A stretch of 64,000 nt of DNA from Metallumcola ferriviriculae (lineage in GTDB: Bacteria; Bacillota; JADQBR01): contig NZ_CP121694.1 in the NCBI RefSeq assembly GCF_035573695.1, positions 3,542,001 through 3,606,000 on the forward strand. The letters run 5' to 3'. Under the pieces are notes generated by a model. The model was given only the letters and a program-made list of their open reading frames with translations. It had not been told where the DNA came from and searched no databases. Position numbers and translations under genes: made by a program. This document shows positions 1,317-14,147 of the stretch, one piece after another (the stretch's first letter is position 1; each line of letters begins with the position of its first letter).

Positions 1317-2939
1317 TCACTTCTTTTCCACTTTAAAGCGTTTGACAATCTTGTCCATTTCTGTCGTTGTGTTAAACAGTTCTGCCGCGTTGGAATTTAT
1401 CTCCTCGCCCATTGCGGCTTGTTCCTCTAATAAACTGGCTATGGATTGGGTGGATGATGCGGTATTCTGTGAAACAGTCAATGCGTCGGTTATTTTTCCC
1501 ATTAGCTGCTGCGTACCATTATTGAGCTCTTCCGCCAATTTGGAATTAGCGTTTATTTGTTTTGCTGCTTGACCCACCGTTCCCTTAATCACGTCAATTA
1601 CTTCTCCGGCTTTTTTGATAACCTCTGTGCCGAGAGTCACCTGCTTCTCACCATCATCCATGGCTACCACAGCTTCCTTTGTTTTAGTCTGTGTGTGTTT
1701 TATTATCTCCATTATTTCATTAGCGGATTTTGATGATTCCTCAGCTAACTTACGCACCTCCTCTGCCACTACAGCAAATCCGCGGCCATTTTCCCCGGCC
1801 CGCGCAGCTTCAATGGCAGCATTTAATGCTAATAAATTCGTTTGATTGGCAATGTCAGTAATAGCATTGCTAATATTACCTATTTGCTGCGAATTCACTT
1901 CTAATTCCGAAATTATTTCGCCAGATACACTTACGGCTTGGTTAATTTGCGACATTTGTTCAATGGATTTTTGAATTGTTTCTGTTCCCTGCTGTACTGC
2001 TTTAAGTATATCCTCACCTAACTCAACCGTTTGTCTGCTATTTATTGCCATATTCTCCATGGTAGCCGTGATTTCCTGTGAAATACTTACTGCACCATGC
2101 ATATCATCGGACTGAGCCTGGGCCCCGCTTGCTACCTGATTCATAGTTTCCGCGATTTGTTCACTGGCTTTACTCACTTGCTCGGTAGCCCTTAATTGGT
2201 CTTGGCCGGCCATATATACCTGGGAGCTCATTTTTGCCAATTCCCGCACCAGTTTATCTAAACCAAGACGTACTTTATTCATTTCGTAAGCAACCGCGCC
2301 TAATCTATCGCGAGAAGTGGGCCGAGAAGCTCTGGTAAGATCACCAATGGCCAAGGCCTCGGACGACAATTTGATCTCTTTTAAAGTTCGACTGATTAAA
2401 TTGTTTAACCACCATATTCCAAGCATCCCCAGCGCAGTAGCCGAGATGGGCCACCAGATCAACTCCCCATCTGTATTACCCATTAAATATACCAATATGC
2501 TGGGTAAGATAACAGGTGTAATAACAGCTGCGACTATTTTGGGTAAAACGGAGGACTGTCCAATTATAAGGCCAACCCGTACAGTAGCCGCTCTATTTCC
2601 ATTAACAATAATTGGCTCGGCCGCATCCAACAAAGTTTCTCCAGTATTACGGTGATATACTTGAACTAATGTCTCTTTGGTTTGAGCCGCTTTAAGACCC
2701 ACTTCATCATTAAACAAAACCCCTTCACGTAAGCGGTTAGTATGTACCAAAGCCAAACCAGTTTCGTCCACCAATACTAAGTACTCAAAATTACCTAGTT
2801 GATTGTCGAAGACATCTCTAATGTGACTCATGACCTCGTCATTTTTGTCAAATCTGCCGAATAAACTTGCGCATTGTTGAGCAATGTCTACAATCTTGGA
2901 ACTGACCTTCCGGGATTGGCGTTTATTGACCTTAGACAT
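1317..2939 (-). CDS. Methyl-accepting chemotaxis protein with N-terminal sensor before the membrane segments
   Basis: This 540-residue chemoreceptor signals to CheA/CheW. The conserved tip is at about 364-400 ([14 protein letters not shown] then [17 protein letters not shown]). A HAMP-like segment spans about 180-232, and two hydrophobic segments lie at about 135-153 and 161-182. Unusually there is no N-terminal membrane segment: a roughly 130-residue Cache/PAS-like domain ([18 protein letters not shown] at 51-68) comes first, so by simple topology it would be cytoplasmic. The ATG at 2939 has a GGGAGGG ribosome-binding site. It follows a dCache receptor gene by 125 bp and ends at a terminator. 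The ligand is not evident. Confidence 0.9.
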
Positions 2940-3064: not shown

Positions 3065-5050
3065 TTAAACAGTAAACTTATTTACTATTGAAGTCAATTG
3101 TTGCGAAAGCGTATTTAAGCTTTGTACCGATGCAGCAATTTCTTCCATAGATGCATTTTGTTGTTGGGCAGCACCTGATACTTCTTCAGAACCTTTAGCC
3201 GTTTGCTCAGCAATTATATTTATATCTTCGATATTAGTGACCAATACATTGCTTTGGTTATTCATTTGTTGAGTAGCACCGAACACTTCTTTTATTTGGT
3301 CGCTTATCTTATTAACCGCAGTGGCAATCTCGCTTAACGCTTCGTCAGCATGTTCGACCGCCCCCATACCTTCGTCCAGCAATACATTGTTTTCCGAAAC
3401 TAGTAATGAGGTATTTTCCATTTCCTGTTGAATTTGTTTAATCATCTGGGCAATTTGATCCGCCGATTGAGCAGATTGTTCAGCAAGCTTTCGCACTTCT
3501 TCAGCCACCACCGCAAAGCCCCTGCCATGTTCCCCGGCACGTGCAGCCTCTATCGCAGCATTTAACGCCAGCAAGTTTGTCTGATCGGCAATACTGGTGA
3601 TAACATCAACAATATTGCCAATTTCCTGGGCCCGCCCGCCCAAACTTCGAACTGTACTGACTGTCTTTTTAAAAGCAGCGCGAGTCGTATCCATTTTTCT
3701 AACCGAACTACTGGCGGCCTCTTTTCCTTTAATAGCAAAATCTGATGCTTCCAGCGCTGATTTCGTTACCACTTCAGACCTTTGCGCAATAACAGTCATT
3801 CTTTCTGCCATTGTTTGTACCATTCCGACGGTTTCCTTAACACTACTAGATTGGCTTTCTGCCCCGGCTGCCAATTCCTGCATTGTTGCGGCAACACTTT
3901 GGGTAGCACCAGTGTTTTCCTCAGTGACTTTGTTTAAGTCGTCACCCGCGTCTTTCAGCTGCTTTGCCGCATGACTTAACTGACCGATAATTTTCCGCCA
4001 GCTTTCAACCATTTCGTTATAGGCTACGGCTAAATCACCAAGCTCATCTTTGGTCTGCACCGTAATCTTCTTAGATAACTGTCCTGCCGCTAAGCTCTTG
4101 GTCCCCTCCACCAATGCTTTCACAGGAAGCAGAATTTTTCGCGAAACAAATAAAGCCGTTAGTCCTGCCAAAATAATTGCTAAAAAACCATATAATAAAA
4201 ACTTGCCAATTAGTTGCCGCTGAACATCTATTATGCCTTGACGCGACCTTGCGACCATAAGCATCCCTACACTGCCCCCACTGGGATTAACAATCGGGGA
4301 GAAACTCATTGCAAAAGGGCTATTGTTTAAATTAGTCACCCCGGTAAAAGTATCGCCATTTGTTAATACCGTGTCGCTAATTTCCCTATTATCTAACTGA
4401 TAATTTACCAGACGTTTACTATCTTCATCTTTTAAGGTAGACGCGATGGCTCTGGTTCCTTGAAAAAAGGTGATTTCAGCCCCGGTTGCTTCCTTAATTT
4501 GGTCCACGACCTCATTATCTATTATATACCCTGCAACAATTGCGCCCACAATATTTCCGAGGCTATCTCTAACAGGTCCGGAAGTTAGATGCAGCATTCC
4601 CTGTTTACCCATCCGAGTACCGCTTCCCGCCTCACCTGATAAAGCTTCCCTAATTATTGACCATTCTTTTATATCTTCACCGAATCGCCGCAGGTCGTGT
4701 CCCGCTACAAAAACTTTTCCATCACTATCGGTCAGCATTAAATAATCCAACCCGTCATCCTTTGCATGGCGAAAAAACCGGGCCACTGTTTGGACCGCTT
4801 GGCCGCGGTTGTTATCCACGAGACTACGCGATATCCGTTCATCAGTATCGATTAGGTTAGCATATGCCCCTGCCTGCTTAGCCAAATTGTTAAAGGTAAC
4901 CTTCACCGTATCCATGGTGTGGCTAATTTCGTCCTCCTGCTTATCGAGCAATACAGAATTGAGCTCATTGATAGCCAATGAAGTGCCTCCTATAAGTGAT
5001 GCAGCCACTATCAACAAAAAGGCCGTCAGAATTTTAGTCTGCAGCTTCAT
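3065..5050 (-). CDS. Methyl-accepting chemotaxis protein with double-Cache-type sensor
   Basis: A classic transmembrane chemoreceptor of 661 residues. An N-terminal membrane segment (about 7-27) is followed by a roughly 250-residue extracytoplasmic region that looks like dCache (motifs such as [20 protein letters not shown] and [14 protein letters not shown]). A second membrane segment lies near 280-303, then HAMP and the signalling domain with [20 protein letters not shown]. The ATG at 5050 overlaps the cytochrome stop codon by one base (TGATG), with a GGGGGAG site six bases upstream; the GTG three bases earlier is too close to the SD. The coupling suggests that the cytochrome and receptor are made together, perhaps as a redox-taxis pair (inference). 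Confidence 0.92.
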
Positions 5051-6120
5051 CACTTACTCCCCCCCTTGAAGAAAGATCTTTCACTGGCCGTTAATTTTTT
5101 GTCTGCCACCTGAAGCAGTTTTTGAGCGTACTCATAATTGTGAAAACCATTACTGCCATCAGCAGATACTATTTGAAAATTAAGCTTGGCCTCAAAGTAT
5201 AATCGTTCGCCCTCACTCCACTGCTCTTCAGTCGGCAGTTTATCACCGTACGTCTGCTCTAATTGCTCCGTTATAGCATTTATTCTCGCTTCTAATTCTG
5301 CGAGTTTTGTAGCAATACTACTTTGTCTTGATTCCACCTGCTCCTGAAAGTTCTTAATACTTTCGTTTGGATGACACGCTTTACACGAGTTACCTTCCTC
5401 TTCATCATACTGCACCGCAAAGTCATGACTGGCTAATCTAGTAACATCCTTGGCAAGATAATTTCCGTTTTCTAAAGTGACTGACCCTTTTTCTAAAAAG
5501 CGATTCAATAACTCCGGCCATTTCTCTTTGGCAATAGAAGCATTCACCTGAGCTTCCGGTTCAGAAGAAAGCAACGGCATATGACAATCCGAACAAGAAA
5601 TGCCAATCTGATATTTTTTGCTCGGACTTTCAACCAGACCAACTCCCCCATATCCCATAAACATCTCTTTTTGGGAATGATGAACGTCGCTCCCTAGCTT
5701 AGGCCCTTCAGCATTGTGACAGCTAATACACAACTCCTGCTTGGGAAGCCTCAAAAGAAATCCTTCTCTACCCTTATGCGGCAAATGACAAACCACACAG
5801 GTTATGCCATGCTTTACATTCTTTAAAGTAACTTCCTCCCCCGGAGAGGCCAGTACTCCTTTGGCTGTCATATGTTCCGTGCAGCGATCCTGAGCATAAG
5901 ATATTTTGGACAGAGTCTCCAGGCTTTTAGCATGAGCATTCTCCTGCCACTGTTTATATTGGTTCTCGTGACAATCGGAACAACGGTCAGCACCAAAACT
6001 AGTGGTAATTAGGGGATCTTCAACTACTGATACCGAGTTTTTATCAGCACCTATCAGCGAGCATCCAACTACAGTAAACATAAAAATAGTCAGTATAGCA
6101 AAAAATACTTTTTTGACCAT
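5050..6120 (-). CDS. Pentaheme c-type cytochrome lipoprotein (NrfA/c552-like)
   Basis: The 356-residue protein has a lipoprotein signal peptide ([20 protein letters not shown], Cys20). Five CXXCH heme-binding motifs start at about residues 47, 108, 131, 176 and 246. The fourth sits in [10 protein letters not shown], a context typical of nitrite reductase NrfA and relatives. A sixth site appears degenerate: CTEHM at 80-84. The C-terminal 110 residues are predicted helices with a coiled-coil feel and an [11 protein letters not shown] motif, again like NrfA-type cytochromes. ATG 6120 has a GGGGTGA site; the in-frame ATG at 6159 has none. It probably faces outward, anchored by lipid. It could be an electron carrier, a reductase or a sensor. 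It is translationally coupled to the chemoreceptor downstream. Confidence 0.85.
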
Positions 6121-6269
6121 GCTATCACCCCATTGATTAGCCCGATATTTGGAAATCATTTCTATAAACTTGGTGAAAAATCCTTTATTTTGTCAGAAAT
6201 CGCTATGACCCTCCTAAAATCGAGTAGCTAGAAAACAGGATAATTAGTCCTGTTTTCTTTGCTCTCACA

Positions 6270-6300
6270 GAACCGGACTTACGTTTGCCGTATCCGGCTC
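6270..6300 (-). ncRNA. Group II intron domain V
   Basis: On the minus strand the segment begins GAGCCGGA and ends TCCGGTTC, giving an 8-bp stem with the AGC catalytic triad near its 5' side. A short inner stem (TACG/CGTA) and a two-base AG bulge complete the fold. Length is 31 nt rather than the usual 34. It lies 18 bases after the maturase stop codon. Confidence 0.85.
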
Positions 6301-6318
6301 CTGAAATTTCTCACCGAA

Positions 6319-7584
6319 TTAATAATGATTCGACAACAACCCAACTTCGTATTGGTGCATATCGATAAGACCTAGATTCTCAAAGTATTGATTTGGCAGT
6401 ATCTGATGTATGATGTGAACATTAGAATTTTTCCATTTTGTCACAGCCATTTTTAATCCATTTCCTTTGATACCTAGCTTTCTCATCTCTTTATCCATTG
6501 CCTTGCAGGTTTTCCATTGCTTCATTTTCACCATTCTTAATCTTCTGCGTAGCCAACCCATAAAGTTTCGTGTAAATTCCTTAATGTTCGCTACTCGATA
6601 GTAATTCATCCATCCTCTTAACACTGGATTTAGCTCTTTGATTATGTTTTCAAGCTTTCTCCCTGAATTTCTCCTTGTAATTCTTCTCACTTTATCTTTG
6701 AAGCGTTTTATCCTTTTCGGATTGACTCCAAGTGTTTTCCTCCGAATTACAAATCCTAAAAATTCAACACCTTCATGCACGCTTGTAAGTTTGGTTTTCT
6801 CTTTGTTTATCTTTAGCTTCAGTTCTTCTTCTAAGACTTTTGTGGCATAGGCTCTATAGTCACCTGCTGTTTTCTTATCTTTTGCAAAGATAAGAATATC
6901 GTCAGCGTAACGTACTATCCTTATGCCCTTTTTCATCATCTTTTGGTCAAACTGATTGAGGTAGATATTACTAAGTAATGGTGAACAGACGCCGCCTTGC
7001 GGGCTTCCGACTTCTGTCTTTGAGAAGTTATCACTGTGCATTACGCCTGATTTTAGAAAGTTTCTAATCAGGTCTAATACTTGCCCGTCACTTATTTGTT
7101 CTGATACTGCTTTTATCATGATTTCATGGTCAAGGGTATCAAAACATTTACTTAGGTCCATATCTACCACATGCTCTAAACCATACTTATTCATAAAGCG
7201 TTCTGCTTTGGCTACTGCTTGGTGTTGTGAATGATTAGGTCGATATCCATAGCTTGATGGATGAAATGTTTTATCAAAGATTGGCTCTATAATATTTACA
7301 ATGGCCTGCTGCACCACCCTGTCCTTTACGGTAGGAATGCCTAGTAATCTTACGCCACCTTCTGGCTTCTCGATTTCTACTCTCCTAACTGGACTGGGTT
7401 CGAAGCTTTTGGTTTTCAGTCTTTCATGAAGAAACTCAATATTTAGCTCTAGTTTAGCCGCAAAATCAGAAACGGTTTCCCCATCTATCCCAGGGGCTCC
7501 TTTGTTTCTCTTTACGTGCTTAAAGGCTAGTTCTAAATTTTCTTTTCGATATATTTTATCGATAAGGCTGTACCATTTCTTCAT
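6319..7584 (-). CDS. ltrA: Group II intron reverse transcriptase/maturase
   Basis: The 421-residue protein has RT blocks in order: NKGAPGIDG (28-36), RRVEIEKPEGGVRLLGIP (67-84), SYGYRPNHSQHQAV, DMDLSKCFDTLDH (141-153), GSPQGGVCSPLLSNIYLNQ and the catalytic YADD at 226-229. A maturase X/GIIM domain follows (LNPVLRGWMNYYRVANI). There is no C-terminal HNH endonuclease, so retrohoming would rely on nicks or single-stranded target DNA. The ATG has a GGAGGAAAG site. All catalytic blocks look intact, so the intron may still be active. It assists splicing of its own intron RNA. Confidence 0.95.
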   Translation of the reverse strand: MKKWYSLIDKIYRKENLELAFKHVKRNKGAPGIDGETVSDFAAKLELNIEFLHERLKTKSFEPSPVRRVEIEKPEGGVRLLGIPTVKDRVVQQAIVNIIEPIFDKTFHPSSYGYRPNHSQHQAVAKAERFMNKYGLEHVVDMDLSKCFDTLDHEIMIKAVSEQISDGQVLDLIRNFLKSGVMHSDNFSKTEVGSPQGGVCSPLLSNIYLNQFDQKMMKKGIRIVRYADDILIFAKDKKTAGDYRAYATKVLEEELKLKINKEKTKLTSVHEGVEFLGFVIRRKTLGVNPKRIKRFKDKVRRITRRNSGRKLENIIKELNPVLRGWMNYYRVANIKEFTRNFMGWLRRRLRMVKMKQWKTCKAMDKEMRKLGIKGNGLKMAVTKWKNSNVHIIHQILPNQYFENLGLIDMHQYEVGLLSNHY

Positions 7585-8339
7585 GACTTTCCTCCATTGT
7601 TGCTGTATCTTTCAGCATCTTTTGTTTGAGCTATATGTTCTTCATTAGGGTTACTTGACGTCTCTAGCTCTATGGCAATCTTATCTTCGTTCCCCTAATT
7701 ATTCATATCCGTGTGGTCGAGGTAGTTCGCAAGTTTTCTTATGCCAACTATTCGTACCTTCTAGCGTTTCAGCTTTCTTTTAACTCCTTCACTCTTACAA
7801 AAGACCTTTCGGATACACTTTGAAATCTCTTCTGCCCTTCGCATCTGTCATAGGCTTTTGACCTAAAACAGTCACATCAACTTTGTGATGTGTCACTTAA
7901 GTTTTCTCCTCCTTGCGATTACTCGCTTTCATTGGCTTAAGTTTAATCACTACTACGGCTTCATCTGCATACTGCACCCTAATTTCACTTCTTGCTTTCG
8001 CTTGAAGTAAAGCCTACAGCTACGAGTACAGTACTTCCAAGGTTAAGTTGCTCTGCCTGTCGTTAAAACGACCATCATAACACATGTAGCTAAGCTAATT
8101 TTTGGGACGTTCCCACTTAATGGAGGGTTATCCGCTACATATGCCAACGTTGGTTCACTGACGTTCCGTTCCAACCACCGCCATCAGCTTCCTTCAGACC
8201 CTTTCGTCGCCGAAAACGCCCTTGCTTACAGCTTGTCTTCCCTTTAGCTAGGTGACAGGTTTTCTTTCAAACCATTGGCTCGGCAACATGCCTCGCAAAC
8301 ATTAACATAAGGGGGCACACCCCCTTAATAACCCCCATG

Positions 8340-8404: not shown

Positions 8405-9706
8405 CTAAACCTTGAAATTCTTAATAAGCTCCTTCAGGTCTTTTGCTACCACAGACAACCTTTGGGCAGCATTACCCAAATCCTCTATTATAGCCGCTTC
8501 TTGTTGGGTTGAAGCAGCTACTTGTTGGGCACTGGAAGTAGTTTCGAGGGCAATTGATGATACCTCTTCAACTGCAACCGCAGCACTTCCCGCAGCTTCG
8601 GCCATTTTCTTACTGGCTTGGGACACTCTTTGCACCTCATCACTGACACTATTAATAACATTGGAAATGTTTTCAAATGCTTCCCCTGCCTTATGAACCA
8701 AACCTATCCCGGTACTCACCTCGTTAGTACCATTTCTCATTGCCTCTACTGCATTCATTGTCTCCTGTTGAATATGCTTGATCAAATCATCAATTTGTTT
8801 AGTAGATACTGCTGATTGCTCTGCCAGTTTTCTAACTTCTTCTGCAACAACAGCAAACCCTCTGCCATGCTCTCCTGCCCGCGCCGCTTCAATTGCAGCA
8901 TTTAGCGCCAAAAGGTCCGTTTGCCCCGCAATGGCCGAGATGGCCTCTACTATTTGACCTATTTCTTTTGAACGTCGACCCAACAGTTCAACTGTCTCAG
9001 CAGAATCATTTACAGTACCGTTTATTATATCCATCTGCCTAACGGCCTCCGTTATAGCTTTGGTTCCTCCCTTGATAACCTTATTTGCTTGTCCCGCCTG
9101 CTGCTCCACAGTGGCGACACTACCGACAACGTCTTGCACAGTTGTTGACATGTCTTCTAAATTAGACGAGGTCATTTTCAAATTTGCTGCTTGGTGATCA
9201 GTACCACGAGCAACTTGCTGAATGGTCGTGGCAATTTGCTGTGTCGCATCTACAACTTCTCTGCTATTATCATCCAATGTAGATACCGCATCAAAAACCT
9301 GTTCAGCAGCTAAAGCCACCTTGTTAATCAGTTTGGCCATTTGTTTCATCATACTGTTATAACTGCTGGCCAACGATTCAACTTGATCACCGGTTGTGAC
9401 TATTATTTTGCCGGTTAAATCCCCTCTAGCAGCCCTTTCCATCCCTTTCACCATCTTCTCTAGCGGCTTGATCAAACGCCCGGCGAAGAACCACGCAACT
9501 ATCAAGGATACTATTGTGCCGCTTATACCGGCAAATAATATATTCCTTTGAAATTCCCAAAAAAGTGCTTCATACGCCTGCCCTTGAGCGGCAAGACTTA
9601 GTCTAGCTTCCACCGCAGGGAAAGTGTATGTTATCGTTGCTGTCCAAAGCGCCACGCTAATCACGGAAAATGCAATCATAAATTTGCCCCTCAAGCCAAA
9701 GCGCAT
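8405..9706 (-). CDS. Methyl-accepting chemotaxis protein with minimal extracytoplasmic loop
   Basis: A short receptor of 433 residues. Membrane segments are at about 8-27 and 54-76, leaving only about 25 residues outside, too small for a ligand-binding domain. HAMP (about 72-125) and the signalling domain with [34 protein letters not shown] follow. Such receptors often sense membrane state or energy, or rely on partner proteins (inference). The ATG has an AGGGGGGA site. It lies 24 bp downstream of fliY, so it is probably co-transcribed with the switch genes, and it ends at a terminator next to the intron. Confidence 0.9.
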
Positions 9707-9730: not shown

Positions 9731-10810
9731 TTAAGCTTCCATCAGATTGTTTAATCTCTCCCGAGTACTGATAATGTGGGTCAGCCTCACACCAAAATTT
9801 TCATTGATTACCACCACTTCGCCATGAGCAATTAAAGTTCCGTTTACCAGAATGTCCACCGGTTCATTGGAAATCTTTTCCAGTTCAACCACTGACCCTG
9901 GGGTAAGATTAAGTACTTCTTTAATCGGTTTTTTGGTTTTACCCAATACAACCGAAATTCTTAATGGTACATCTAAGATTAAATCTAAGTTTCTCGGTTG
10001 CTCATCATCCTGCTCCGCTGCAGGCATCCCTTTCGGCGGCGCGGAAATCTCCTCGTCATTACCCTTAGGGACCTCCTCAATTAACTGATATTCATCCGTT
10101 CCTTCATCTTCCGAACTAACATCAGTGTTTTCGTCTCCGCCCGTAGAAGTACCAAGTAAAAATTCTGCTTGCTCTCTGGCTACACCTATGGGTATTACTT
10201 GCATTATCTCACTATCCACCAATTCACCGATGGTTAAATTAAAGGAGATTACCACCAATTGAATGTCTTCAGGATATTGAAAAGGGTTTCCAACCTCTTC
10301 GGAAAAGTCTACAGGGGTTATCTCAGGAGGGGAAATGACTACTCTCTGATTGAACATTGTTGACATAGATGTTGCCGAAGAACCCATCATTTGATTCATA
10401 GCTTCCGCCACAGCACTAATCGAAAACTCCGACAACTCATCTGTAATTTCTTTGCCCTCTCCCCCCATCATCAGGTCAGCAATTACAGCGGAATCCCTTG
10501 ACTGCATCACTAAAATATTATCACCCTTAACCCCGTCGGTGAAATTAATTTTGATTAATAAATATGGTATATTGAATGTTTCCGATAATATCTTAGAATT
10601 TGTTAAAGAAATTTTGGGAGTTGTAATAGTTACCTTTTGATTAATCAACTGAGACAGAGCTGTGGCAGCGGACCCCATGGAAATATTTCCTATCTCACCC
10701 AGTGCGTCCTGTTCTTCAGCCATTAATTCTTGCTTAGCAGAAGCTTCACCCGCCTCTTCTTGACGCAGTAAGGCATCTATCTCTTCTTGGGACAAAAAAC
10801 TGTCACTCAT
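9731..10810 (-). CDS. fliY: FliY, flagellar switch protein with CheC-type phosphatase domain
   Basis: FliY is a C-ring component that also dephosphorylates CheY-P. The N-terminus has the CheY-binding-like peptide FLSQEEIDALL (5-15). Two CheC-type active-site helices follow: ALGEIGNISMGSAATAL with E39/N42, and AVAEAMNQMMGSSATSM with E136/N139. An acidic linker (about 215-275) leads to a C-terminal FliN/SpoA domain (about 280-359: LDLILDVPLRISVVLGKTKK). At 359 residues it has normal length. It overlaps fliM by 8 bp. A stand-alone fliN is also present at 25985-26356, so this C-ring has two FliN-type subunits available. Confidence 0.97.
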   Translation of the reverse strand: MSDSFLSQEEIDALLRQEEAGEASAKQELMAEEQDALGEIGNISMGSAATALSQLINQKVTITTPKISLTNSKILSETFNIPYLLIKINFTDGVKGDNILVMQSRDSAVIADLMMGGEGKEITDELSEFSISAVAEAMNQMMGSSATSMSTMFNQRVVISPPEITPVDFSEEVGNPFQYPEDIQLVVISFNLTIGELVDSEIMQVIPIGVAREQAEFLLGTSTGGDENTDVSSEDEGTDEYQLIEEVPKGNDEEISAPPKGMPAAEQDDEQPRNLDLILDVPLRISVVLGKTKKPIKEVLNLTPGSVVELEKISNEPVDILVNGTLIAHGEVVVINENFGVRLTHIISTRERLNNLMEA

Positions 10811-11798
10811 CTACAACATCTCCCTCATTCACAATTGTGGTAATCTGAGCAGCCAGGGTATTGCCTTTCACACCAGGTTGGAATTTTAGTTTGGTGTGTC
10901 CTTCAACCAACATATCCATATCCGAATCCACCGAGCGGTCTAAAATTAAACAATCTCCCGTTTCCAGTTGCAAAAATTCTCTTACCGTCAGTTGGGTTTC
11001 ACCACATAGAGCTGTTAATGTCACGGGCGCCTTACCCAAAAACTTACTCATTGCTTTATAATAAGTATCCCGGTCTTTCTGGTCAGAACCCGAGAACCAG
11101 TAATGGGCAGAAAGTTTAGAGATTACTGTTTCCAGTGTTATATAAGGTAAACATAAGTTGATATAACCCTGAGTATTTCCAATTTGGCTGCTAAGTGTGA
11201 CCAACGCAATGGTCTCATTCGGTGAAATAACTTGGTTATATTGCGGGTTAGTCTCCATAGACTCAATTTGTGGTGAAATGTCGAATAAATCCGCCCACGC
11301 CGTGACCAAGTTATCCAACATCCGAGCGTTAATTTTACGTAGGACACTCATTTCAATCTCGGTTAACTCCCGCACTTCTTCTGTCATCTTCCCAGTGCCG
11401 CCAAATAGCAAATCAATCATGGGAAAAACAAAAGCCGAGTTTGTCTCTAATACACCCGTTCCTTTCAACGGCGGTAGTGAAAAAACAGTCATTAATGTTG
11501 GAGTGGGTACTGAGTTGATAAAATCTTCATACGTCAGCTGATCTACAGACATTATTTTAATCTGAGCACTAGTTCGTAAATAGGCAGATAAAAAGTTAGA
11601 TAATAGCCGCGCAAAATTATCATGTATCATGTGCAGCGTACGCAGCTGGTCCTTAGAAAATTTGTTTGGCCTGCGAAAATCATAACTACGTACCTTTTCC
11701 TGTGTATTTTCCTCTTTTAATTGTTTCGTGTCTAACTCGCCTGTGGAAATAGCATTTAGCAATAAGTCAATTTCTGATTGTGATAAGACTTCTTCCAT
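10803..11798 (-). CDS. fliM: FliM, flagellar motor switch protein
   Basis: The 331-residue FliM begins with the CheY-P binding peptide VLSQSEIDLLL (4-14). The middle CheC-like domain includes the segment with MSVDQLTYEDFINSVPTPT and the conserved FxFPMIDLLFGGTG-type motif (AFVFPMIDLLFGGTGK). The C-terminal SpoA domain starts near 250 (VTLTALCGETQLTVREFLQL). The ATG has an AGGAAGGTG site. It sits between cheY and fliY with an 8-bp overlap into fliY. It transmits CheY-P binding to rotation. Confidence 0.97.
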   Translation of the reverse strand: MEEVLSQSEIDLLLNAISTGELDTKQLKEENTQEKVRSYDFRRPNKFSKDQLRTLHMIHDNFARLLSNFLSAYLRTSAQIKIMSVDQLTYEDFINSVPTPTLMTVFSLPPLKGTGVLETNSAFVFPMIDLLFGGTGKMTEEVRELTEIEMSVLRKINARMLDNLVTAWADLFDISPQIESMETNPQYNQVISPNETIALVTLSSQIGNTQGYINLCLPYITLETVISKLSAHYWFSGSDQKDRDTYYKAMSKFLGKAPVTLTALCGETQLTVREFLQLETGDCLILDRSVDSDMDMLVEGHTKLKFQPGVKGNTLAAQITTIVNEGDVVDE

Positions 11799-11826
11799 AG
11801 CACCACCTTCCTTCTTAAGGCTGCTC

Positions 11827-12189
11827 TTAACCCAAGGCCTTTTGCAGTGCCTGCAGTACTCTATCCTGTTGGAACGGCTTCACAATGAAATCCTTGGCCC
11901 CTGCCTGAATTGCTTCCATCACCATCATCTGCTGTCCCATGGCACTACACATAATGATTCTTGCAGATGAATCGATATCTAAAATTTGCTTTACTGCAGC
12001 TATGCCATCCATTTCAGGCATGGTTATATCCATAGTGACCACGTCTGGTTCCATTTCTTTGTATAATTCTACTGCTACAGCACCATTAGTTGCCTCGCCA
12101 ACAACCTCATAACCATTTTTGAGAAGAATGTCCTTAATCATCATACGCATAAACGCTGCATCATCAACAATCAATACTTTTTTTCCCAT
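11827..12189 (-). CDS. cheY: CheY, chemotaxis response regulator
   Basis: A single-domain receiver of 120 residues. The acidic pair is D9/D10, the phospho-acceptor is D54 (VVTMDITMPEMDG), the switch residue is S82 (IIMCSAMG) and the conserved lysine is K104 (DFIVKPF). ATG 12189 is preferred because the GGGGGAG site is six bases upstream; the in-frame GTG at 12195 would abut it. Phosphorylated by CheA, it binds FliM/FliY. It sits between cheC and fliM. Confidence 0.96.
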   Translation of the reverse strand: MGKKVLIVDDAAFMRMMIKDILLKNGYEVVGEATNGAVAVELYKEMEPDVVTMDITMPEMDGIAAVKQILDIDSSARIIMCSAMGQQMMVMEAIQAGAKDFIVKPFQQDRVLQALQKALG

Positions 12190-12217
12190 GTTCACTCCCC
12201 CTAATATTTTAATATTA

Positions 12218-12805
12218 TTAAAGCCCTAATGCTGTCAAAATCCTCTTTAAAGACTCCTCCGTAGGAATTAAAAAGAAGTGCCCTCTGAGAATGCTGTCTT
12301 CAATAAAAAATTGGGTTTCAATAATTAAAATTTCTTCCGACAAATGCCCGCCTTCTAAAAAAGCAGCGTTAAGAACCGCACCCAGCATATCAAAAGACAG
12401 CGCTGGAACAGAACGGGAAATATTTAACCTCGTAAACTGACTTAGGGCAGTAAGAAAATTTCCTGTAAGAATATTACCGATCTCATGGAGAGTGGATTCC
12501 ACCAAACTCTCATCCCGTACGTTTCCAAGAAGCATGCTTAACAACCTATTGGCACTGGACTCATTTAATAAAAAGAAAATGTTTCCTGCCACATCTCCAC
12601 TCATTATAAAATTCACGCAAGAGACAATGTCTTCCTCTTTTCCCACCAGCTTAAATGTTTCCTCTAAGGGAACTATCCCAGATCTGGGCACTGTCATTTG
12701 AACTTTACGGTTTAACATCTTTCCCAGGGCAGTAGCGGCATTTCCCGCGCCAATATTGCCAATTTCCTGTAAAGCGCTTAAATGTATTTCCAGCAGCTCG
12801 TCCAT
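12218..12805 (-). CDS. cheC: CheC, CheY-P phosphatase
   Basis: 195 residues with both CheC active-site helices intact: ALQEIGNIGAGNAATAL (E14, N17) and TLHEIGNILTGNFLTAL (E108, N111). CheC hydrolyses CheY-P and binds CheD, completing the CheC/CheD/CheY-P adaptation loop known from Bacillus. The ATG has a GGAGAAGG site. It is followed by cheY and preceded by cheR. Together with FliY it gives two phosphatases; no cheZ is seen. Confidence 0.95.
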   Translation of the reverse strand: MDELLEIHLSALQEIGNIGAGNAATALGKMLNRKVQMTVPRSGIVPLEETFKLVGKEEDIVSCVNFIMSGDVAGNIFFLLNESSANRLLSMLLGNVRDESLVESTLHEIGNILTGNFLTALSQFTRLNISRSVPALSFDMLGAVLNAAFLEGGHLSEEILIIETQFFIEDSILRGHFFLIPTEESLKRILTALGL

Positions 12806-12873
12806 AATTACCTTCTCCTTCCCCTAATAGATCTGTTTTAAATAAAGGCTTATAATTTACCTAGAATAGTTAG

Positions 12874-13638
12874 TTAAGCCTCTTTGCGGTAAAACCAAGA
12901 CGAACTTTTTACTAGCCCTAATTCTCGATAATTGAGAATGCTTTCCGTAGCACCAATAAAGAGAATGCCTCCCTCCACCAATGCGTCAACGAACTTTTGG
13001 TATAATTCCCACTGTGCTTCTTTGGTAAAATAAATAGTAACATTGCGACAAACAATCAAATGGTATCCTTTACCATATCTATCCTTCAGCAAGTCATGGC
13101 GCCGAAATGTCACGTGATCCTTTATCGTGCTGCTTAGATGATATATACCAGCCGACTCTGTGAAATATTGTCTTAATCTATTTTCAGAAACATTTTTAAC
13201 TAAGTTTGCCGCATACTTACCGCCTTTGGCAGTTAAGAGCACCTTTTCATCCATATCAGTAGCATCAATTGTATGTCTCCCGCCAAACTCATGCAGTATC
13301 ATTGCCAGTGAATATGGTTCAGCTCCATTAGAACAAGCTGCGCTCCAAACCTTAAGCGTTTTAAACTGTCTATATAACGCAGGGAGAATTTCTCTTTCAG
13401 CATGAGCAAAAATGTCCGGATTACGAAAAAATTCTGACACGTTTATGGTTAATTTATCCATAAATTCAGCCCAAAGACCTTTGTTCCGCTTCAAGGCTTC
13501 GAAGTAAGTAGCGTAATCACTAAAGCCCTTTTGCCGCATGAGGCTTTCTATTCTTCTTTTTAACTGTTTTTCTTTATAACCATTAAGATTTACGTTGAAG
13601 TGTTGGTCTATCGTACCCTTGAATTGGCTAAAGTCCAT
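12874..13638 (-). CDS. cheR: CheR, chemoreceptor glutamate methyltransferase
   Basis: 254 residues. The N-terminal helical domain (about 1-70) has the RRIESLMRQKGFSDYATYFEAL segment, then the SAM-binding domain with LKVWSAACSNGAEPYSLAMIL, an IDATDMDEKVL motif and LIVCRNVTIYF. It methylates receptor glutamates, using SAM. The ATG at 13638 has a GGGAGGA site within the end of cheD, with a 31-bp overlap. Its antagonist CheB is encoded separately at 57675-58718. Confidence 0.96.
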   Translation of the reverse strand: MDFSQFKGTIDQHFNVNLNGYKEKQLKRRIESLMRQKGFSDYATYFEALKRNKGLWAEFMDKLTINVSEFFRNPDIFAHAEREILPALYRQFKTLKVWSAACSNGAEPYSLAMILHEFGGRHTIDATDMDEKVLLTAKGGKYAANLVKNVSENRLRQYFTESAGIYHLSSTIKDHVTFRRHDLLKDRYGKGYHLIVCRNVTIYFTKEAQWELYQKFVDALVEGGILFIGATESILNYRELGLVKSSSWFYRKEA

Positions 13639-14147
13639 GGTTCCTCCCGAAGTTCCCTTGGTGTTTTTCCTGCTGAACGAATAAATACTTTCCCGGTTTC
13701 TGAATGAAAAATCATTGTACGACCAATGTTCCCGCCTACTTCTGCAGCGGTTAAAGCAATCTGCATATCCTTTAACACCTCTTTTACTTTAGCTATGTTT
13801 CTTTCTCCAATGTTCAAAGTAGTACTGTCCGCAAAGGAAAACATTTGCGCACCGCCGGCGATTTTAGCCCGAAACCTTGATTTCCCTCCACCCATTGAAA
13901 TAAGTTTTTCCAAGAGTTGGGGAATAGCCAAATCAGCAAACTTTAACGGGTTGGTGACTCTATTAAATTGCCTACTGTCCGGCAGCATAATATGAGACAT
14001 CCCCCCTATTTTAAGCTTATAGTCATATATAACGATACCCACGCAAGAACCTAACCCCAGCGTAATTAATGTATCGGGACTATATGCGACTTTGTAATCG
14101 GCGATGCCAACCCTAATTTCCTGGTTAACTAAACTTGAATTTTTCAC
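13608..14147 (-). CDS. cheD: CheD, receptor glutamine deamidase
   Basis: 179 residues of normal CheD length. The catalytic Cys35 lies in TLGLGSCVGIVIYD and His52 in GGMSHIMLP. It deamidates receptor glutamines and is regulated by CheC. The start is GTG at 14147, with GGAGG eight bases upstream (GGAGGAAAAAT-GTG); an ATG two bases earlier is out of frame and runs straight into a stop. It is the first gene of the cheD-R-C-Y-fliM-fliY-receptor unit, divergent from the plus-strand TPR gene 90 bases away. I saw no convincing sigma-28 promoter there. Confidence 0.95.
   Translation of the reverse strand: MKNSSLVNQEIRVGIADYKVAYSPDTLITLGLGSCVGIVIYDYKLKIGGMSHIMLPDSRQFNRVTNPLKFADLAIPQLLEKLISMGGGKSRFRAKIAGGAQMFSFADSTTLNIGERNIAKVKEVLKDMQIALTAAEVGGNIGRTMIFHSETGKVFIRSAGKTPRELREEPWTLANSRVR

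Follow-up and report, generated by a model that had tools for sequence, protein, structure and literature searches.

The cytochrome and receptor genes

The window, that is the whole 64,000-nucleotide stretch of Metallumcola ferriviriculae DNA that was analysed (NZ_CP121694.1, positions 3,542,001 to 3,606,000), carries on its reverse strand a gene for a pentaheme c-type cytochrome lipoprotein, followed by the gene of a methyl-accepting chemotaxis protein (MCP) (Table 1). The TGA of the cytochrome gene and the ATG of the receptor gene, at 5050, have one A in common (TGATG), and the Shine-Dalgarno sequence of the receptor, GGGGGGAG, is located inside the end of the cytochrome gene. The open reading frame of the cytochrome spans 5050-6159(-), and the start at 6120 is preferred because a Shine-Dalgarno-like GGGGTGA lies 4 nt upstream of it. 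The pair sits in a run of three MCP genes, beside fliY/fliM/cheY/cheC/cheR/cheD-like genes. The MCP directly downstream has no Pfam sensor or HAMP match and carries ~130 N-terminal residues ahead of the transmembrane segments, while a group II intron with a reverse transcriptase/maturase (IEP) lies between the cytochrome gene and the upstream MCP. The window genome holds 8 MCPs and at least 13 multiheme genes, and at none of its other checked loci does an MCP adjoin a multiheme gene; about 0.03 same-strand adjacencies are expected per genome, an estimate that assumes ~3,600 genes.

Table 1. Features at the cytochrome-receptor locus, in window coordinates
Feature	Position	Strand	Basis
Second MCP, directly downstream	1317..2939	-	Pfam, sequence
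MCP: TM, dCache sensor, TM, HAMP, MCPsignal, 661 aa	3065..5050	-	sequence, Pfam, model
TGATG stop/start overlap of cytochrome and receptor	5048..5052	-	sequence
Pentaheme cytochrome lipoprotein (NrfA/OcwA-C-terminal-like), 356 aa	5050..6120	-	sequence, Pfam, structure search, fold model
Heme motif CKACH	5371..5385	-	sequence, alignment
Heme motif CSDCH	5581..5595	-	sequence, alignment
Heme motif CISCH	5716..5730	-	sequence, alignment
Heme motif CVVCH	5785..5799	-	sequence, alignment
Degenerate site CTEHM, NrfA heme-1 / OcwA heme-5 position	5869..5883	-	alignment; OcwA heme assignment PMC6703420
Extra N-terminal heme motif CSDCH	5968..5982	-	sequence, alignment
Lipobox Cys20 (VVGC)	6061..6063	-	sequence
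Group II intron	6219..8216	-	
Reverse transcriptase/maturase IEP of the intron	6319..7584		
Third MCP, upstream beyond the group II intron	8405..9706	-	Pfam, sequence
FliY/FliM/CheY/CheC/CheR/CheD-like genes	9731..14147	-	named by reading translations, without family search

The cytochrome has a signal helix and a lipobox Cys, as expected of a lipoprotein, and this lipid anchor would place it on the same face as the receptor sensor. Pfam matches are Cytochrom_C552 (PF02335, partial match), Cytochrome_C554 and Paired_CXXCH, and among solved structures OcwA of Thermincola potens (PDB 6i5b, E 5e-44) gives the best match, the matching region being the NrfA-like C-terminal half of OcwA. A model of the cytochrome (pLDDT 78) likewise matches OcwA first and NrfA further down the list, so that Pfam, structure search and model all give an NrfA-like pentaheme core fold with C-terminal helices. 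The alignment shows the HH distal motif and the remaining heme motifs to be kept, while a sixth site, CTEHM, which has neither the second Cys nor the His, aligns with the active-site heme motif of NrfA and OcwA; the total is still five CXXCH motifs because of the extra CSDCH near the N-terminus. As judged from the sequence, the equivalent of OcwA heme 5 is degenerate under a retained HH motif. With five CXXCH and 356 aa, the protein does not have the nine hemes and N-terminal c554-like half of an OcwA-type surface reductase. No close ortholog of the window cytochrome was found, including in three genomes of the window's class. The window genome encodes a second ~350-aa pentaheme cytochrome (G000:C1 3200814-3201824, L214), which is 38% identical to the L189 protein of genome G303 (see below) and has no adjoining MCP.

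In the receptor, Pfam identifies MCPsignal, HAMP and sCache_3_3, with dCache_1 under the cut-off; a Cache sensor joined to HAMP and MCPsignal within a single membrane protein is the make-up of Cache chemoreceptors. In the AlphaFold model of the outer part (pLDDT 90), a long helix carries two alpha/beta modules, and dCache receptors such as Tlp3, PctA, DctB and LuxQ rank among the top PDB matches; the two modules and these matches therefore make the description as dCache-type correct. The receptor has no CXXCH and is not a c-heme chemoreceptor of the DcrA / sCache_heme kind. The first-pass annotation had described a TGATG overlap, a lipid-anchored pentaheme cytochrome and a dCache-type receptor, and the sequence, the VVGC lipobox with its five CXXCH, and the receptor model bear out all three. 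Its term 'NrfA-like' holds for the fold and the lineage of the cytochrome, but the protein is not the NrfA nitrite reductase itself because the CXXCK catalytic heme is absent, CTEHM being found where it is expected; the MCP-linked relatives have CxxCH or CxxCM there.

Recurrence of the pairing

Homologs were drawn from 398 genomes of the phylum (Bacillota), from the order holding Thermincola-like genomes and from named genome contigs, the last of which were the sample of phyla beyond Bacillota; a single-protein scan of named genome contigs gave no find. One script scored all gene neighbourhoods, with flanks that were often 1.5 kb. The paired protein served as query, which introduces a mild bias, and the OcwA-like homologs, which score equally high, were the control. 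A same-strand MCP neighbour at a gap of -1 to 31 nt accompanies 11 of 20 short homologs (200-370 aa) but 0 of 19 long OcwA-like ones (Fisher p ~1e-4, which overstates the significance because the homolog rows are related and not independent). One further short homolog of the 20 (L038) has a convergent MCP, and a twelfth same-strand pair occurs in genome G303 (L189). In G043 (L190 3586-5525), a pentaheme lipoprotein gene is convergent to that of a small, soluble MCP that carries a sugar-diacid recognition domain. The check for conserved adjacency that the first-pass annotation had proposed was thus positive, as short pentaheme lipoproteins adjoin MCPs in about ten Bacillota genomes from at least four lineages, and the adjacency is wider than that annotation knew. 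The lipobox is standard in 10 of the 12 same-strand paired cytochromes and looser in L032 (AAGC) and L042 (STGC).

In the tree, the MCP-linked cytochromes of the neighbourhood survey fall into three separate lineages, with G303 as a fourth, although the three tree changes could also be fewer gains plus losses. Four sensor types are found among the pairs, namely the four-helix bundle (4HB), sCache_3_3, dCache and the c-heme sCache (Tll0287/sCache_heme). Clade I comprises seven genomes with a four-helix-bundle MCP partner (4HB_MCP_1 is above the Pfam cut-off only in L060, and the other clade I sensors were assigned by homology to L060), clade II comprises three genomes with a sCache_3_3 MCP partner, and the window pair has a dCache partner and the opposite gene order. 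In G303, the cytochrome gene precedes the MCP gene by a 4-nt gap, and the receptor has a Tll0287-like sensor that itself contains a CXXCH, of the same type as the c-heme sensor of Geobacter GSU0582/GSU0935; this MCP occupies L189 4303-6048, straight after the pentaheme lipoprotein gene. Since both gene orders and different sensor types occur, the pairing is not inherited synteny, which argues that it was assembled repeatedly.

Within clade I, conservation of the receptor sensor comes close to that of the signalling domain, at ~64-74% and ~70-85% identity, respectively (the closest pair and the distant L060 left out). In L060, a Bacillota MAG, the pair stands first in a run of genes that includes cheR (Pfam) and encodes CheA/CheW/CheB/CheY/CheC/CheD-like products (translations read). 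In Thermincola-like MAGs, the two genes of the clade I pair form an island of their own with housekeeping genes (dxs/FtsJ-like and NAD-kinase) on either side, and the pair is therefore not merely part of a respiratory cluster. On the same strand, one clade II pair (G210, L195 2373-4717) is followed by genes for a DctP-type solute-binding protein and for a second MCP. In the family of L189-type cytochromes, only 1 of ~26 loci has a same-strand pair, so that pairing is occasional in some branches, and homologs of the dCache sensor of the window had no heme neighbour at any of 24 loci. As the window cytochrome has no close ortholog, conservation holds for the arrangement and not for this exact pair. 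A scan for sigma-D (flagellar/motility) promoters upstream of the pairs gave nothing beyond shuffles.

The active-site heme and the bis-His chain

The heme alignment took in 39 homologs, and the convergent L038 was left out of the counts of linked and unlinked proteins. The bis-His chain (hemes 2-5), with its four hemes and distal His, is nearly always complete across the 39. Loss or change of heme 1 is confined to MCP-linked homologs (4 of 11) and is seen in 0 of 27 unlinked ones, in which the site reads CxxCH or, once, NrfA-type CxxCK. The altered sites are CYQCM or CYSCM in three clade I genomes (L032, L035 and L037) and CTEHM in the window, and they probably represent two events, not four. 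CxxCM at the NrfA active-site position in these three clade I proteins may indicate a Met-ligated or missing heme. In OcwA, the corresponding heme 5 is an open active site under the HH motif (PMC6703420). The mitochondrial heme lyase is described as attaching no heme where the His is missing (PMC4158909); heme 1 may therefore be absent at the altered sites, with the proviso that bacterial systems may differ. Judged from these motifs, the loss of the catalytic heme together with retention of the chain favours a sensor or relay over a reductase.

A candidate redox co-receptor

The reading that we prefer, to which we give about an even chance, is that the gene pair encodes a two-part redox (energy-taxis) chemosensor in which the cytochrome acts as a redox co-receptor toward electron acceptors. 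Its basis is the gene structure, the TGATG overlap, homology and fold, the lipid-anchor signal, the recurrence, and the conserved heme chain with a degenerate catalytic site, and the involvement of four receptor types points to a sensor in two parts by which electron flow would steer the cells. The bis-His chain of the cytochrome would accept or donate electrons depending on the local acceptor outside the cell or on the respiratory chain, the redox state of the cytochrome would alter docking on the outer domain of the receptor, and docking would set CheA activity and thereby steer swimming; in G303, the heme within the receptor could receive the electrons. For the pairs, we infer that the two proteins touch, that signalling depends on the redox state and that electron acceptors are the stimulus. 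Of the earlier proposal of a two-part redox sensor, the functional unit is thus supported by the recurring adjacency, while the redox-reporting mechanism is what we infer.

Several other accounts of the pair have to be weighed. If a cytochrome gene had been randomly inserted into a chemotaxis cluster, this would fit a window cytochrome that is without a close ortholog, is one among the many multiheme genes of its genome (at least 13) and adjoins a group II intron indicative of local rearrangement. The overlap with its Shine-Dalgarno sequence and the recurrence in at least four lineages, set against the small number of adjacencies estimated above, speak against such chance neighbours, a reading that is disfavoured by the neighbourhood survey and the tree and that we hold to be very improbable. 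Less easily dismissed, though still unlikely, is a division of labour in which the cytochrome simply transfers electrons at the surface or serves as a minor terminal reductase, and the receptor uses its Cache or helix-bundle domain to sense a small ligand, e.g., a carboxylate, both being co-expressed because both are useful when acceptor is scarce. OcwA and its relatives are indeed extracellular reductases (PMC6703420), Cache domains usually bind small ligands, the fold matches include the ligand-bound Tlp3, PctA and a formate sensor, and the window genome has its 13 or more multiheme genes; however, the long reductase-like homologs never adjoin MCPs (0/19), the active-site heme is degraded in MCP-linked members only, and pairs are found again and again with several kinds of sensor, 4HB among them, and also standing alone as two-gene islands.

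The cytochrome could also be a heme-based sensor of a ligand (NO, nitrite, sulfite or similar), serving as a binding-protein co-receptor that takes up the ligand on its open heme and docks on the MCP in the liganded form. Small ligands bind at heme 5 of OcwA and heme 1 of NrfA, the HH distal motif is retained, NO-sensor properties are reported for the sCache_heme MCP type (PMC12889525), and partner architectures of the LuxPQ type exist. Yet the window protein (CTEHM) and three clade I proteins (CxxCM) lack the very heme that would be open or have it in altered form, and we regard this account as improbable.

The redox co-receptor can be set against several known systems. With OcwA, the window cytochrome shares the C-terminal pentaheme NrfA-like core, the HH distal motif and the three-helix C-terminus, but OcwA is a nonaheme outer-wall reductase, whereas in the window protein, which has an MCP as partner, the N-terminal four-heme half is missing and the active-site heme is degenerate. 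NrfA belongs to the same pentaheme fold family (partial PF02335 match, fold matches), and the window cytochrome differs from it in having no CXXCK catalytic heme and in being a lipoprotein. A precedent for heme redox input to MCPs is given by the c-heme receptors of Geobacter and Desulfovibrio (PMC8396549), and redox and NO roles are attributed to the sCache_heme/c-heme domain type in the literature (PMC8396549, PMC12889525). DcrA and GSU0582/GSU0935 resemble the pair in their heme-linked extracytoplasmic MCP input, for which redox sensing is proposed (PMC8396549, PMC12889525); in these, however, the heme is within the receptor and not in a separate multiheme lipoprotein, while G303 has both. 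LuxP-LuxQ and binding-protein-dependent MCPs likewise have a two-component extracytoplasmic input, and the LuxQ sensor is among the fold matches, but the partner here is a redox multiheme cytochrome and not a sugar-type binding protein. In Shewanella, accumulation at and taxis to insoluble acceptors need multiheme cytochromes and a Cache MCP, and for this congregation and energy taxis both CymA, MtrBC/OmcA and the MCP SO_2240 are genetically required; in the part of that source used here, no dedicated receptor-cytochrome gene pair is described and indirect proton-motive-force sensing is proposed (PMC5789149). Geobacter senses electrodes through the esn chemosensory genes, the MCP of which lacks a periplasmic domain (PMC5585712).

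The first-pass annotation named no known case of a separate multiheme lipoprotein paired with a receptor in this way, and literature searches for MCP/multiheme-lipoprotein pairs found no description in the papers searched. It is plausible, and partly supported, that the pair is a new form of receptor-plus-partner sensing. Proposals for the sensing of solid or distant electron acceptors have so far invoked the proton-motive force or hemes inside receptors. A dedicated receptor and multiheme lipoprotein pair, recurring with unrelated sensor domains, is a concrete candidate, open to genetic tests, for the sensing of electron flow by Gram-positive bacteria, and the pair-bearing genomes include several iron-breather-like Gram-positive bacteria. 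More tentatively, in a reading that we hold to be less likely than not, Gram-positive metal-respirers may repeatedly have built 'electrical' chemoreceptors, in which a catalytically retired NrfA/OcwA-type pentaheme lipoprotein would be an electron-sensing antenna that docks on an MCP, or passes electrons into a c-heme receptor, so that cells steer by electron flow to outside acceptors. If true, the core of a respiratory enzyme would have been turned into a sensor.
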